Position numbers and translations under genes: made by a program. From Euzebya pacifica (GTDB taxonomy: Bacteria; Actinomycetota; Nitriliruptoria; Euzebyales; Euzebyaceae), in assembly GCF_003344865.1 (NCBI RefSeq), contig NZ_CP031165.1, forward strand, positions 4,345,910-4,409,909: a stretch of DNA of 64,000 nt, in the 5' to 3' direction. Numbering within the stretch: position 1 is the first letter of the stretch; every line of letters begins with the position of its first letter. Of the stretch, positions 42,413 to 47,351 are shown piece by piece. The notes under the pieces are model-generated. The model was given only the letters and a program-made list of their open reading frames with translations, ran no database searches and was not told the DNA's origin.

Positions 42413-43399
42413 TTACGGCCGGACTGACCGAACCGACCGCTGCATGTCCACCGGTCGCACCGAGCGGGCCGCGGACGGACGGCGGTCCCCGGGGCGCACG
42501 GCGCCGGTGAAGGCGATCGCCTCGGGCACCTCCTCACCGCGGCGACGGAGCACCGCGCCGTAGCAGGCGGCACCGAGGAGGACGAGCAGGGCAAGGGTGG
42601 TTGCGTACCAGGACGGCTGGACGACGCTCAGGCTGGCTGCGGCGACGTTGCGAACGGGCTCTGCCGCGGCCTGCAGGACCGACTGGTCCTCGGCAGTCAC
42701 GGCAACATCGGTCGTACCGGGGACGATCTGCTGGCCGGCCACCATGGGCGCAAGGACCAGCGGCTCACCCGATACGGGATCGGTCAGCGGACGCGCCGCG
42801 GTGCCGAGGGACGGCACGACGCTGACGCCGTAGGTCTCGATCGGCGGGGGGGCGACACCGTTGTCCTCGGCGGCGGCCTCCTCACCCTCGACGGGGGCGC
42901 CTTCCGCGGGCACGCCCTCGCCCTCGGCCGTGACCTCGCCGTCCGCGGGCTGGGGTGCCTGCGGCGCCTCGACGACCTCTTGGGCGTTGCCACCCTCGGC
43001 TTCGACCTCACCGGATCCGCCCTGGGCCCCGTCGTTGCCCGGGTTGGCCGGCTCGTCGCCCTCGCCGTCGGCGAGCTGTTCCTCGAAGTCCTCGAGCATG
43101 TCGGCCAGCGTGGGCTCGCCGTCGTCCTCGCCGAGGGCCGGGGGTGTCGCGCTCGGCGTCGGGGTCGGGGTCGGGGTGGGGGTCGGGGTCGGCGTGGGAG
43201 TCGGCGTCGGTGTCGGTGTCGGGGCAGTCTCGCTCGATGCGCCTGCGGAGCCATCGGGGCGGGCGATCTGGGCTGCGGACGGCGACAACGGCAGCAGCAG
43301 GATGCCGACAACCAGCAACGCCAGCATCAGAGTCGTTCGACGCTCTCCGGCGCCCGTCAGATCGTGCATATGGAGAAGTACCTTCAAACGTTCGGCCAT
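42413..43399 (-). CDS. Surface protein with Thr-Pro run and C-terminal TM anchor
   Basis: A 328-residue protein of unknown family. N-terminal cytoplasmic stretch (1-20), a hydrophobic signal/TM (LMLALLVVGILLLPLSPSAA, ~25-44), then a Thr-Pro dipeptide run (~60-82), an acidic Glu/Gly/Ala-rich region, a folded ~70-residue part with PIETYGVSVVPSLGTAARPL, and a C-terminal TM helix (YATTLALLVLLGAACYGAVL) with a basic tail. GGAGGAG precedes the ATG. The layout is that of a wall-spanning stalk protein; the Thr-Pro run may be glycosylated. Confidence 0.72.
   Translation of the reverse strand: MAERLKVLLHMHDLTGAGERRTTLMLALLVVGILLLPLSPSAAQIARPDGSAGASSETAPTPTPTPTPTPTPTPTPTPTPTPSATPPALGEDDGEPTLADMLEDFEEQLADGEGDEPANPGNDGAQGGSGEVEAEGGNAQEVVEAPQAPQPADGEVTAEGEGVPAEGAPVEGEEAAAEDNGVAPPPIETYGVSVVPSLGTAARPLTDPVSGEPLVLAPMVAGQQIVPGTTDVAVTAEDQSVLQAAAEPVRNVAAASLSVVQPSWYATTLALLVLLGAACYGAVLRRRGEEVPEAIAFTGAVRPGDRRPSAARSVRPVDMQRSVRSVRP
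43153..43226 (-). repeat. Thr-Pro coding hexamer run (in-gene)
   Basis: About 74 bases of ggggtc/ggcgtc-like hexamers on the plus strand, coding on the minus strand for consecutive Thr-Pro dipeptides; prone to in-frame length change. Confidence 0.85.
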
Positions 43400-43727
43400 C
43401 GTCGCTCCTCCGGGAGTTCGCTGGTGATGGCACCGGCGACCGGGAAACGACACTCGCTTCCGAAGACTACCGGTACAGGGCGGGGGGAATCCACCAACTC
43501 CCTCACATGTCGGCACGTCCGATGGGCCCCTGTAGGACTTCTCCGTCGGATACCACGCTGGGCAACACCAACCCCCCGCTGGGTGCGTCAAACTTCACGC
43601 ACCGTTAACCGCAGGAGGGGTCGCGGGCGGAACACCCGGGTACCATGCTTGCAACAGACAGCGGAACGCTTGCATTTGGCTATCCACAGCTCGGACCACC
43701 GCTGACCAGCTCGAGGAGGAGGCCCGA
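43400..43727. promoter_or_regulatory. Divergent promoter region, 328 bp
   Basis: No gene is supported. It separates the Thr-Pro-rich protein from the cyclase and must hold both promoters. It is less GC-rich than its surroundings near 43640-43700, with gcttgca repeated at 43646 and 43669 and a TATCC that could be part of a -10 box. The assignment is tentative. Confidence 0.4.
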
Positions 43728-44369
43728 ATGAGAGATCTCATCGGCATCCGCAAGGTCTCCGAGCATGCGCTGCGCCACCTCGCAGACATGTTCGCCGACG
43801 ACACCAACCCCATCGATCCCACCGACGTGTCCGTGGACGCAACCATCGTCTTCGCCGACATCGAAGGGTTCTCCGACGTCGTTGCCCGCGAGGGCGACGA
43901 CGCCGCTGCTGCCGTGCTCGACCAGCTCGACGCTGCGGTCGAGGCCGCGGTCGGGCCCACGGCGGCTCGCGTGGTCAAGCGCCTCGGCGACGGCGTCATG
44001 ATCGCCGCCGACGACCCGGCCGACGGTGTCCTCGTCGCCGCCGCGCTCCCCGCCGCGTTCGCCTGCCGCCTGGCCGACACGACCCACCCCCTGCGCCTGC
44101 GTGTCGGCGCACACCGCGGTGTGGTCCGCAGCCGAGGAGACGACCTCATCGGCTACCACGTCAACGTCGCGGCCCGCGTGGCCGAGCAGGCCGTCGGGGG
44201 CGAGGCCCTCGTCACCGGGGCCCTCCACGACTCGGTGGAGCTGTCCCACCCCCTGAGGGCCGTCGAGGCCGGCCAGCTCGTGGCCAAGGGTGTGCCGGAA
44301 CGGCCGCGCGTGTTCCGGCTCGTGGTCGACGCCGAGCAGTCCCCGTGCGAGCAACCCCTGACGGCCTGA
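43728..44369 (+). CDS. Class III adenylate/guanylate cyclase (stand-alone catalytic domain)
   Basis: A 213-residue class III nucleotidyl cyclase with no sensor domain. Active-site residues are all recognisable: metal Asp in VFADIEGFSD and in RLGDGVM, the purine-contacting Lys in VVKRLGDG and Asp in GDDLIGYHVN, and the transition-state Asn and Arg in VNVAARVAEQ. It should make cAMP as a homodimer; Lys/Asp favour ATP over GTP. A GAGGAGGAGG site precedes the ATG. It lies 38 bp upstream of a sirtuin gene on the same strand. Confidence 0.88.
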   Translation: MRDLIGIRKVSEHALRHLADMFADDTNPIDPTDVSVDATIVFADIEGFSDVVAREGDDAAAAVLDQLDAAVEAAVGPTAARVVKRLGDGVMIAADDPADGVLVAAALPAAFACRLADTTHPLRLRVGAHRGVVRSRGDDLIGYHVNVAARVAEQAVGGEALVTGALHDSVELSHPLRAVEAGQLVAKGVPERPRVFRLVVDAEQSPCEQPLTA

Positions 44370-44407
44370 TCGCGCCTGTCCCCGGTCGATCGGGTAGACC
44401 AACCCGC

Positions 44408-45154
44408 ATGGTCGACTCGCTTGCAGAATTCCTTCGCCGCTCCGAGCACCTGCTGGTCCTGACCGGCGCAGGCATCTCCACGGAGTCGGGCATCCCCGAC
44501 TTCCGTTCCCCCGGTGGGGTGTGGACGCGCTACGACCCACGGCAGATGACCTTCGACCGGTACGTCGAGTCCGCGGAGGTGCGGGCCCTGTCCTGGGCGA
44601 TGCGGCGGGAGTTCTTCGCTGCCGGCGCCCGCCCGAACGCCGGCCACCTCGCCATCGCCGCGATGGAGGCGGCGGGACGCAGCGTCGGGGTGATCACCCA
44701 GAACATCGACGGGCTCCACCAGGAGGCCGGTTCACGGACCGTCGTGGAGATCCACGGCACGGCCCGCACGGTCACCTGCATCGGGCGGCGGCCTCGCTGG
44801 GGCATGCCCGACGGATGCGGGTTCCGTGAAGACACGACGTGGGCGTTCGCACGCATCGACGCCGGCGATCCCGATCCGGCCTGTCCGGAGTGCGGCGGAC
44901 TGGTCAAGTCGGCCACGATCAGCTTCGGACAAGCGATGGACACCACGTCCATGGATGCGGCCGCCCAGCTGATGGACGTTGCCGACGCGATGCTGGTCGT
45001 CGGGTCGTCGCTGCAGGTCCACCCTGTCGCCGGCATGCCCGTCGACGCGGTCGAGCGCGGCCTCCCCCTGGCCATCGTCAACCGCGAACCCACCCCCCTG
45101 GACGACCTGGCCGACGTGGTCGTCCACGGCAGCGCCGGCGAGGTACTGGGCTAG
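44408..45154 (+). CDS. NAD-dependent protein deacylase (sirtuin)
   Basis: A 248-residue Sir2-family enzyme removing acetyl or other acyl groups from lysines with NAD. Motifs: LTGAGISTESGIPDFR (NAD pocket), TQNIDGLH, the catalytic His in VEIHGTART, and four cysteines of the zinc module (one after VT, one in DGCGF, two in CPECGG; the first pair spaced C-x12-C, wider than the usual C-x2-C). VVGSSLQVHPVAG completes the Rossmann part. It follows the cyclase in the same direction and may be co-transcribed; in actinobacteria cAMP can control protein acetylation. Confidence 0.93.
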   Translation: MVDSLAEFLRRSEHLLVLTGAGISTESGIPDFRSPGGVWTRYDPRQMTFDRYVESAEVRALSWAMRREFFAAGARPNAGHLAIAAMEAAGRSVGVITQNIDGLHQEAGSRTVVEIHGTARTVTCIGRRPRWGMPDGCGFREDTTWAFARIDAGDPDPACPECGGLVKSATISFGQAMDTTSMDAAAQLMDVADAMLVVGSSLQVHPVAGMPVDAVERGLPLAIVNREPTPLDDLADVVVHGSAGEVLG

Positions 45155-45160
45155 ATCGTT

Positions 45161-45223
45161 GGTCCTCGCTCCGCTCGTCGGGTCCTCGGGCTCTGACCCG
45201 ACGAATCGCTCCCTCGATTCTCG
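45161..45223 (+). repeat. 63-bp inverted repeat, left arm
   Basis: Matches the reverse complement of 46912-46974 at 59 of 63 positions, the first 44 without a mismatch. Each arm contains its own hairpin: here cgtcgggtc (45176-45184) pairs with gacccgacg (45195-45203). Confidence 0.9.
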
Positions 45224-45291
45224 GCCCTCGCTCCGCATCGGGCACTGCGAGCCTCGCTCGCGTTTCGTCGGCGCCCTGCGGCGGTGCGCTG

Positions 45292-45384
45292 GCACCTCTG
45301 TGGGCCGAGCACACGACGGTTGGCACCTCGGCGGGCCGAGCACACGACGGTTGGCACCTCGGCGGGCTGCGCACACGACCGGTG
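45292..45384 (+). repeat. Three tandem 31-bp repeats
   Basis: Units at 45292-45322, 45323-45353 and 45354-45384, each starting gcacct and containing cgggc-gcacacgac. Units 1 and 2 differ at three positions, unit 3 is more diverged. Non-coding. Confidence 0.88.
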
Positions 45385-45447
45385 TGTGCGTTCCCCCGCT
45401 CCAGGCGCTGCTGATCGCACCCACCCTCGACCGTTGTGCGACATGAA

Positions 45448-45462
45448 CGCCCCGAGGAGACG
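45448..45462. repeat. 15-bp target-site duplication, left copy
   Basis: cgccccgaggagacg directly left of the IS end; the identical 15 bases follow the right end at 46740-46754. Confidence 0.88.
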
Positions 45463-45531
45463 TGTATGAACCGGGGACCTTGTTGACAGTTGGATCCGGG
45501 GAGGTCCTTGACACCTGCACACAGTGCGTGG

Positions 45532-45885
45532 ATGCGCATGAGGCAGGTGAGCGTGATGCAACAACGGCACGAGATGGTGCTGGCGGTCAGGCAGCGAGGC
45601 ATCTCGGTGAGTGGCGCTGCGGCGCTGTTCGGGGTGTCGCGGCAGACCGTCCACAAGTGGCTGGCCCGGTATGACGCGGAGGGGGTGGAGGGGCTGGGTG
45701 ACCGGTCCAGCCGGCCGCTGGTCCCGTCGGGGCAGGTCGACGGCGGCCTGGAGCAGCGGGTGGTGCAGCTGCGAACCGCCAATCCTCGGTGGGGGCCCAA
45801 ACGGATCCATGCCGAGCTGGTCCGTCGGGGGTGGATCCGCCGGCCAGGTCGACCATCGGGCGGATCCTTGCCCGCAACGGACTGA
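45532..45885 (+). CDS. IS481-family transposase, N-terminal HTH part
   Basis: A ~117-residue frame with the DNA-binding part of an IS481 transposase: QQRHEMVLAVRQRGISVSGA, GVSRQTVHKWLARYDAEG, LGDRSSRPLVPSG and NPRWGPKRIHAELVRRG. It continues correctly up to a run of five G (45827-45831), after which the frame becomes nonsense (ending SGGSLPATD). The second half of the protein resumes in the -1 frame. An in-frame TTG at 45490 lies inside the terminal repeat, so the ATG at 45532 or 45556 is the likelier start. Confidence 0.82.
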   Translation: MRMRQVSVMQQRHEMVLAVRQRGISVSGAAALFGVSRQTVHKWLARYDAEGVEGLGDRSSRPLVPSGQVDGGLEQRVVQLRTANPRWGPKRIHAELVRRGWIRRPGRPSGGSLPATD

Positions 45886-46676
45886 CCGGGGACCACCCTC
45901 GCCCCGTCCCGGCCGCGCCGTTGCGGTTCGCCCGGGAGCGGCCCAACGAGCTGTGGCAGATCGATGGGATGCGGCTGGCCGTGGGCGAGGACACCATGAC
46001 GGTGATCACCCTGCTGGATGACCACAGCCGGCTGTGCCTGGAGTTGTTGCTTGCGGCAGGGGAGACCGCGGCGGCGGCCATCGCCGCCTTCGACCGGGCG
46101 GTCAGCCTATGGGGGCTGCCCCACACCGTGCTCAGCGACAACGGCAGCGCCTTCACCGCCCGCTCAAAGGGTGGGGTGGGCCCCTTCGAGCGGCACCTGT
46201 GGCAGCAGGGCGTGGCCACCATCAATGGTCGGCCCTACCACCCCCAGACCCAGGGCAAGGTCGAGCGGCTGCACCGCACCCTGCGCGAGTGGCTCACCGA
46301 CCACCCCGCCGAGGACGCCCACGCGATGACTGACCAGCTCGACGTGTTCGTCGACCACTACAACACTCAACGGCCACACCAGGCCCTCAACGACCGCACC
46401 CCCGCCCAGGTCCACGCCGACACACCCCCGGCCCGTCCCGACCCGGCCGGCACCCTCCACCAGCGCAGCCGACGGATGGTCAACCACACCCAGGGCAACG
46501 GCAACCTTGGCTACGCCTCCTGGCAGATCGGGCTGGGACGAGCCCACCCCAACACCGTCGTGGCGATCACCGACCACGGCGACCTCATCGAGATCCACGA
46601 CGAGCACGGCACCCTCATCGGCACCACCAAGCCCGACCCCACAACCCGCTACCTGCCCCTCACCCGACACACCTAG
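45789..46676 (+). CDS. IS481-family transposase, DDE integrase part (-1 frame)
   Basis: The catalytic half of the transposase with an rve integrase core: LWQIDGMRLAVGED (first Asp), LSDNGSAFTARSKG (second Asp), GRPYHPQTQGKVERLHRTLR (catalytic Glu), then DHYNTQRPHQALNDRTPAQV and a C-terminal extension. True coding probably begins where this frame takes over at 45831 (VDPPARSTIGRILARNG); the stated start is only the frame's first start codon. A -1 slip on GGGGG would give one full-length ~380-residue protein; otherwise the element is disabled. Confidence 0.8.
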   Translation: MGAQTDPCRAGPSGVDPPARSTIGRILARNGLTGDHPRPVPAAPLRFARERPNELWQIDGMRLAVGEDTMTVITLLDDHSRLCLELLLAAGETAAAAIAAFDRAVSLWGLPHTVLSDNGSAFTARSKGGVGPFERHLWQQGVATINGRPYHPQTQGKVERLHRTLREWLTDHPAEDAHAMTDQLDVFVDHYNTQRPHQALNDRTPAQVHADTPPARPDPAGTLHQRSRRMVNHTQGNGNLGYASWQIGLGRAHPNTVVAITDHGDLIEIHDEHGTLIGTTKPDPTTRYLPLTRHT

Positions 46677-46739
46677 GCTGTGTGCACCTGTCAACAAGGC
46701 CCCCGGACCAAGGTGTCAACAACCTCCCCGGATCGCACA

Positions 46740-46754
46740 CGCCCCGAGGAGACG
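46740..46754. repeat. 15-bp target-site duplication, right copy
   Basis: Identical to 45448-45462; directly follows the right end of the IS element. Confidence 0.88.
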
Positions 46755-46975
46755 GGCATGCCGCACGAGCCCTCACCCCGGGTGCGGTCGACCACCCTCA
46801 GAGGCGCCCAACGCACACGCCGGCCTGACCACCGCAGCCGGACCGGGCACCGACCGCCGCAGGGCGCCGGCGATCCGTGAGCAAGACTCACAGCCACGAG
46901 CCTGCGAGAGGCGAGAATCGGCGGAGCGGATCGTCGGGTCAGAGCCCGAGGACCCGACGAGCGGAGCGAGGACCG
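46755..46975. other. Non-coding region right of the IS element
   Basis: No gene is supported. It contains the right arm of the 63-bp inverted repeat. Removing the IS and one target copy would join it to 45155-45462 as a partly palindromic ~550-bp spacer between the sirtuin and fdxA genes. Confidence 0.7.
46912..46974 (-). repeat. 63-bp inverted repeat, right arm
   Basis: Reverse complement of 45161-45223 with four mismatches. Internal hairpin cgtcgggtc (46932-46940) / gacccgacg (46951-46959). Confidence 0.9.
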
Positions 46976-47013
46976 AAAAACAAAGCCAACCCCGCGCCGA
47001 GGCACGGGGTTGG
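46976..47013 (-). terminator. Intrinsic terminator of fdxA
   Basis: On the minus strand a perfect 9-bp stem (ccaaccccg / cggggttgg, 46986-46994 and 47005-47013) is followed by ctttgttttt, the clearest stem plus U-tract in the window. It lies 17 bp after the ferredoxin stop. Confidence 0.85.
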
Positions 47014-47030: not shown

Positions 47031-47351
47031 TTACTCCCAGGCGGCCACCTTCGGGTGGTCGACGCCGGAGGCGCCCACCTTGGCGGCACCGCCGGGGGAA
47101 CCGACGCCGGAGACGCCGTCCTCGAAGTACTCGGCGTTCCAGGGAGTGAATTCCTTCCACTCGTCCGGGACGTCGTCCTCGTAGAAGATGGCCTCGACGG
47201 GGCATGCGGGCTCGCAGGCGCCGCAGTCCACGCACTCATCGGGGTGGATGTAGAGCATCCGGTCACCCTCGTAGATGCAGTCCACGGGGCATTCCTCGAT
47301 GCAGGCCTTGTCCTTCACGTCGATGCAGGGCTCGCAGATCGTGTAGGTCAC
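47031..47351 (-). CDS. fdxA: 7Fe ferredoxin ([3Fe-4S][4Fe-4S])
   Basis: A 106-residue seven-iron ferredoxin like mycobacterial FdxA and Azotobacter FdI, a low-potential electron carrier. By analogy with FdI the [3Fe-4S] cluster is held by Cys9, Cys17 and Cys50 and the [4Fe-4S] cluster by Cys21, Cys40, Cys43 and Cys46; Cys25 is the extra free cysteine also known there. The [13 protein letters not shown] segment and the C-terminal [12 protein letters not shown] are typical of the actinobacterial group. GTG start; longer in-frame readings are antisense to the hydrolase. Followed by a strong terminator. Confidence 0.95.

Follow-up and report, generated by a model that had tools for sequence, protein, structure and literature searches.

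In the window, the whole 64-kb stretch of DNA analysed here, a Sir2-family gene (44345–45154, plus strand) and a convergent ferredoxin gene (4Fe-4S; 47031–47351, minus strand) enclose a spacer that holds two inverted arms, a set of dyads and an insertion sequence (IS). The left arm (type A, 128 bp, 45159–45286, plus strand), placed with the nhmmer arm family and alignment A1, adjoins the 3' end of the Sir2-family gene at a distance of four bases, and the right arm (type B, 122 bp, 46853–46974, minus strand), placed with the arm family and the alignment, is the one toward which the ferredoxin gene points. The arms include the segments 45161–45223 and 46912–46974, which an earlier note on this DNA had described as inverted repeats. 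Aligned as reverse complements, these segments do agree at 59 of 63 positions, and the next best ungapped match to either 63-mer within the window reaches 36/63 in a scan that covered both strands for the right-arm 63-mer and the plus strand only for the left-arm 63-mer. The inverted similarity reported farther inwards is also present, with 45136–45231 pairing with 46904–46999 at 82% and 45245–45285 with 46853–46893 at 83%. Each arm has a stem of its own, as claimed, although its length is a perfect 10 bp in both arms (TCGTCGGGTC / GACCCGACGA) and not 9 bp.

Next to the left arm, a 31-bp unit is repeated three times in tandem (45290–45382, plus strand; copies 2 and 3 share 94% and 81% identity with copy 1), and three dyads follow, to which no strand is assigned. 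Dyad 1 (39 bp, 45384–45422) and dyad 3 (39 bp, 46780–46818) have PWM scores of 35.5 and 36.0, compared with at most 8.8 in 20 shuffled windows and 7.5 in the reversed window. The start of dyad 2 lies exactly 52 bp beyond that of dyad 1, and the IS splits this dyad into a left part of 27 bp (45436–45462) and a right part of 12 bp (46755–46766). Taken without the IS, the locus is a large imperfect palindrome of inverted arms around dyads, as had been anticipated. Between the ferredoxin gene and the right arm, a terminator-like hairpin with a T-rich tract can be made out by eye on the minus strand (about 46974–47011), and the same order of an intrinsic-terminator look-alike followed by an arm is seen by eye at another locus, L033. 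A further two-armed copy, L039 (G000:C1:4411728-4412357), lies about 1.8 kb past the right end of the window and, judged by eye, contains a longer version of the 31-bp unit array.

The IS (1,277 bp, 45463–46739, plus strand) sits inside dyad 2 and is bordered by an exact 15-bp target duplication (CGCCCCGAGGAGACG), the left copy of which occupies 45448–45462 and the right copy 46740–46754 (both plus strand). Given this span and this duplication, the arms lie well outside the IS and belong to the host spacer, in agreement with the earlier note. Ends of the IS481 family follow the rule TGT...ACA. The IS has the ends TGTATG and CGCACA, and its transposase, encoded by two overlapping ORFs (45490–45885 and 45789–46676), combines an HTH/leucine-zipper region with a DDE integrase core (Pfam LZ_Tnp_IS481, 36.7 bits; rve, 58.5 bits; rve_3 also matched), which places it in this family. 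The splitting of the transposase (45490–46676) may reflect a broken gene or a programmed frameshift. In the window's genome (G000), the IS has a single full copy, the one within the middle dyad; a 71-bp stretch at L178 (G000:C1:1854692-1854762) matches its left end at 86%, the rest of the IS being absent there. The arms are older than the IS, as claimed, because the orthologous spacer of a congener (L062) has both arms and the dyads without an IS and because none of the three other genomes searched within the genus contains a match to the IS at E <= 1e-10. We infer that the IS is a later accident in the middle dyad of an older element. IS elements of other families are known to insert into REPs (PMC1525189, a source whose main text does not contain the term "IS481").

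The arm family

A genome search for further copies, proposed in the earlier note, found many of them in intergenic positions. A 91-bp left-arm query matches on the same chromosome with E values from 1e-38 upwards, and several arm copies in G000 are paired in inverse orientation within a few hundred bases of each other. At six G000 loci (L031, L032, L036, L038, L039 and L041), inverted arms are arranged as terminal inverted repeats, a feature of MITEs. The arms can be sorted into types A, B and C and a diverged remainder. A covariance model built from 35 arms (35 of 38 nhmmer hits, shorter ones having been dropped) gives 19 matches in G000 and 19 in a carrier congener (G002), three of the latter weak (E 1e-6 to 1e-5), with search filters that lose some weak matches. 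Two other congeners (G001 and G003) have no match to this model, and the 62 genomes that complete the class set of 66 yield a single weak one (E 8e-4). An initial search of relatives with the arm gave matches at E <= 0.001 in 6 of 61 genomes, of which four had a single weak match each.

At L057 and L059, full arms are bordered on their outer side by nested partial copies of the outermost 47 bp of the arm. The tetranucleotide CGTC is found within the arm stem, and neither the tag (GTAG/CGTC) nor the 10-bp stem is constant over the 35 aligned arms; as the RNAalifold consensus is also weak, the 10-bp hairpin was rejected as a conserved feature. A search for the arm core pattern in GTDB genome contigs, from which the window's own genome was possibly left out, returned 44 stretches with one match each, plus one in viral contigs, and these were taken as chance because the best arm-model score over the 45 loci is 17.6 bits. 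The arms are only the wrapping of a better-defined triplet core, and like arrays are also present elsewhere without arms.

The dyad triplet and its position relative to genes

The core consists of three 39-bp dyads with an exact period of 52 bp, about five helical turns; each dyad has a variable middle of 21 bp, and the triplet measures 143 bp. It can be written as six half-sites GTGYGnnnTnnnCnnC in alternating orientation, with one consensus common to all six, and the kernels lie between the arms at fixed offsets (for instance, GTGTGCGTT and AACGCACAC). The dyad pattern GTGTGCGWT-N21-AWCGCACAC with at most three mismatches occurs 68 times in G000 (1 with the reversed pattern as control) and 123 times in G002 (control 0), compared with 2 sites in G001 (control 1) and 1 in G003 (control 3). 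With at most two mismatches, 27 of 246 phylum genomes match and only G000 (47) and G002 (75) exceed 2, the other sampled genomes being at chance level and the reversed control giving 13 and 6 matches in two genomes and no more than 1 elsewhere. The pattern was not found in viral contigs.

A PWM scan of 50 loci, picked for arms, dyads or orthology to such loci, identified 184 dyads, compared with 0 in the reversed control. Neighbouring dyads are exactly 52 bp apart 112 times and the next commonest spacing (54 bp) occurs 4 times; steps of 55 and 64 bp also occur. Three dyads make up 53 of the 72 exact-period runs, the others having one (15), two (3) or four (1), and two of the 15 single-dyad runs are dyads 1 and 3 of the window, between which the IS splits dyad 2. 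Where one spacer holds two triplets, the distance from the last dyad to the first varies (e.g., 108, 119, 122 and 139 bp) and the spacing within the triplet is fixed; therefore, the 143-bp triplet was taken as the unit. Its consensus is dyad-symmetric around its own centre (0.557 vs. a median of 0.295 over all centres). Triplets for consensus and divergence were selected by exact 52-bp spacing, and among 54 of them identity is 0.77 within kernels and 0.50 between kernels, with 0.33 expected from composition alone. That an exact length is kept despite strong divergence of the letters points to selection on the spacing, with the caveat that this set had been chosen for its spacing. The existence and the architecture of the element are well supported.

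For all 49 arrays, any overlap with a called gene is 20 bp or less, an intergenic position like that of REPs and BIMEs (gene calls were made in this analysis). They lie between convergent genes in 25 cases, tandem genes in 21 and divergent genes in 2, with 1 unknown, and the 58 gene pairs of the window are 12 convergent, 35 tandem and 11 divergent. Convergent pairs are thus overrepresented (25/48 arrays vs. 12/58 gene pairs, Fisher p 0.001) and divergent pairs underrepresented (2/48 vs. 11/58, p 0.034) in counts that are not independent, as the window's IS-split array is counted twice and orthologous loci separately. Divergent genes flank one array (L041, L059). The arms share this placement: the outer neighbour is a gene 3' end in 25 of 34 arm matches (two-sided binomial p 0.009; tallied by hand, partial and orthologous arms included), five matches are 42–110 bp from a gene 5' end (L035, L041, L058, L059 and L063) and four further ones are at least 468 bp from the next called gene on the outer side.

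Shared addresses and folding

Flank comparison pairs 18 of the 26 fetched G000 loci with 18 of the 24 fetched G002 loci; L088 and L092 were fetched after the flank search led there, and two of the 18 pairs are arms without dyads. At 14 of 14 shared addresses, compared by the best triplet pair where several were present, the kernels are better conserved than the rest (0.72–0.89 vs. 0.38–0.72). The triplets at these addresses are 56–78% identical and the long flanking matches 80–96%. Dyad numbers can change at a kept address: at four of them three dyads in one species face six in the other, and at several the counts are not multiples of three (5 vs. 3, 4 vs. 3, 7 vs. 2, 6 vs. 11). Of 12 orthologous arm pairs, all 12 have a paralogue within the same genome that is closer than the orthologue, and the type is the same in 5 of 12. 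Mean orthologous-arm identity is 0.80, not clearly higher than the 0.77 of random pairing (601 of 5000 permutations as high); the arm pair of L093 and L090 is normal (0.945 vs. 0.77 and 0.72) and was kept out of the permutation. Because paralogues are closer than orthologues and types are mixed, it follows that most arms have been replaced or homogenised inside each genome while their addresses stayed fixed. Two G001 junctions at which G000 and G002 have the element, L100 and L101, are nearly empty, the called genes being 7 and 6 bp apart. Their flanks (about 74–81%) are too diverged to fix the ends of the element, which are also blurred by nested partial arms. In G003, a spacer of about 1 kb contains an extra called gene.

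Local RNA hairpins in the triplet were rejected, as the local hairpin partners have no positive covariation. The outermost half-sites (F1–R3) show weak covariation (core p 0.006 without correction for the 15 pairs tested at three column sets), and the folding energies of 10 triplets give z values from -3.7 to +0.45, 7 of them below -1.4; therefore, a large hairpin across the triplet may form. Half-sites of the same direction have inner letters that are alike within a triplet (R1–R2, R2–R3 and R1–R3, z 4.1 to 5.3), which fits strand composition or internal duplication. The whole-palindrome test (z -5.4) was read as confounded by strand composition, and the kernel tests were therefore relied on. 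In the arms, an 8-bp long-range stem has 91% of cells paired and 30 compensated cells, compared with 8.7 in shuffles (0 of 500 as high); a slide of one column still gives 23. Seven arms fold little better, or worse, than their shuffles (z -1.7 to +0.9). Rfam had no match in 5 and in 8 loci searched, and a tRNA search of 14 loci found none. We conclude that the constraint acts mainly on DNA.

Relation to known repeats and interpretation

The comparison with a BIME-type pair of REPs made in the earlier note holds in that a REP/BIME-like family with many intergenic copies exists and fails for the REP-associated transposase. Pfam Y1_Tnp (PF01797), with which this tyrosine transposase was sought, has no match in G000 and is positive in 5 of 14 control genomes, and a RAYT-driven REP was rejected because G000 has no Y1 gene. 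In the parts of the sources used here, REPs and BIMEs are non-coding, species-specific intergenic repeats whose units alternate in orientation at regular spacing and which are often found at gene 3' ends and between convergent genes (PMC2817692; PMC3733652). The present element shares these properties, its regular units being the six alternating half-sites at a 52-bp period, and is therefore REP/BIME-like in kind (see also PMC3116915, in part). It differs in its unit, a 39-bp dyad whose 21-bp middle is variable, in arrays that are mostly threes with an exact period, in arms of about 130 bp at some loci and in having no Y1/RAYT gene found. The REPINs of Pseudomonas, as far as the source was used, are similar in that they are inverted doublets which function as one unit and whose evolution takes place within the genome, whereas they are linked to RAYT and the present element has three dyads, a longer spacing and no RAYT found (PMC3116915). 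A motif pair of unknown function in Bradyrhizobium, GAATCCAT(N)23ATGGATTC, is likewise a long dyad with a variable middle of fixed length, intergenic and near gene 3' ends; it is described as single pairs, and the part of the source used mentions no phased triplets or arms (PMC5217627). The literature matches listed (titles and abstract starts; most subscription journals outside scope) include no description of the element or of a phased three-dyad core; judged against them, the element is a new lineage-specific intergenic repeat of unusually strict architecture. The BOX elements of pneumococcus are also modular intergenic repeats, with end modules and repeated middle modules. In the present element, the middle is mostly the dyad triplet, and its sequence is presumably unrelated to BOX.

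The element is restricted to two species among the genomes searched, is intergenic and occupies addresses shared by both, with arms homogenised within each genome. It could be a selfish family of REP/BIME type without host function, whose transposase has since been lost and which is now only converted between copies. Alternating orientation, intergenic position at gene ends and species-specific sequence, typical of REPs and BIMEs in the portions consulted (PMC2817692; PMC3733652), argue for such a family, as do the nested outer-47-bp arm copies and the arm turnover within each genome. We consider it somewhat unlikely, since G000 yielded no Y1 transposase and neutral decay poorly explains both an exact 52-bp spacing with half of the inter-kernel letters changed and the prevalence of exactly three dyads. 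An RNA element, either a bidirectional terminator or a 3'-end stabiliser acting via folding of the transcript, would account for the location at gene 3' ends, the compensated arm stem and the somewhat better folding of most of the 10 triplets than of their shuffles. It is nevertheless improbable, given the local kernel pairs without covariation, the seven arms that fold little better, or worse, than shuffles, the loci without an Rfam match and the two arms (on the window's ferredoxin side and at L033) that lie, by eye, just outside an intrinsic-terminator look-alike.

Terminal inverted arms are also expected of a non-autonomous transposon, and three dyads would suit a resolvase-like site such as res. 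The tight G001 junctions and the counts of three dyads in one species against six in the other at four shared addresses are consistent with such recombination or transposition. However, the diverged G001 flanks establish no target duplication for the element, the addresses are stable between species and dyad numbers elsewhere differ by other steps. Moreover, the only arm pair around a called gene, in the set of loci read, is that of the window with its IS, and the ends of this IS differ from the arms, so it is not an autonomous MITE partner with the same ends. A recombination or transposition site thus seems very doubtful. For a simple local inversion or chance, which has next to no credibility, no support was found, and it is refuted by an arm family that recurs in the same arrangement at other loci across G000 and G002 and by the window scan, which has no comparable second match.

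With a probability of about one half, the triplet would be a protein-binding platform at gene 3' ends within a REP/BIME-like element. The recurrence of the core at gene ends suggests an unknown DNA-binding system. The window's 63-bp repeats belong, as outer arms, to a composite non-coding element placed mostly at gene 3' ends. In the protein-binding model, its triplet would serve as a DNA-level landing platform for a putative oligomeric protein that recognises half-sites set on one helical phase, and the bound platform would mark or insulate the junction between neighbouring, often convergent, transcription units. The arms would be REP-like sequences exchanged between copies via gene conversion or via insertion beside old copies. 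More tentatively, the triplets may be platforms of an undescribed lineage-specific system of chromosome organisation or transcription boundaries, in which a protein oligomer would bind the six phased half-sites at gene 3' ends, selection would keep spacing and kernels, and recombination among dispersed copies would go on replacing the rest. Intergenic repeat families of bacteria are usually explained as transposase products or RNA hairpins. In the present element, it is the helical phasing and the half-site letters of the DNA that appear to be constrained, with three dyads as the usual unit. As two close species keep the element at the same addresses and two congeners are without it, the question of whether gene-end repeats do anything becomes directly testable. 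Upstream of the Sir2-family gene, the window also has an ORF with a long Pro-Thr repeat tract (42413–43591, minus strand).
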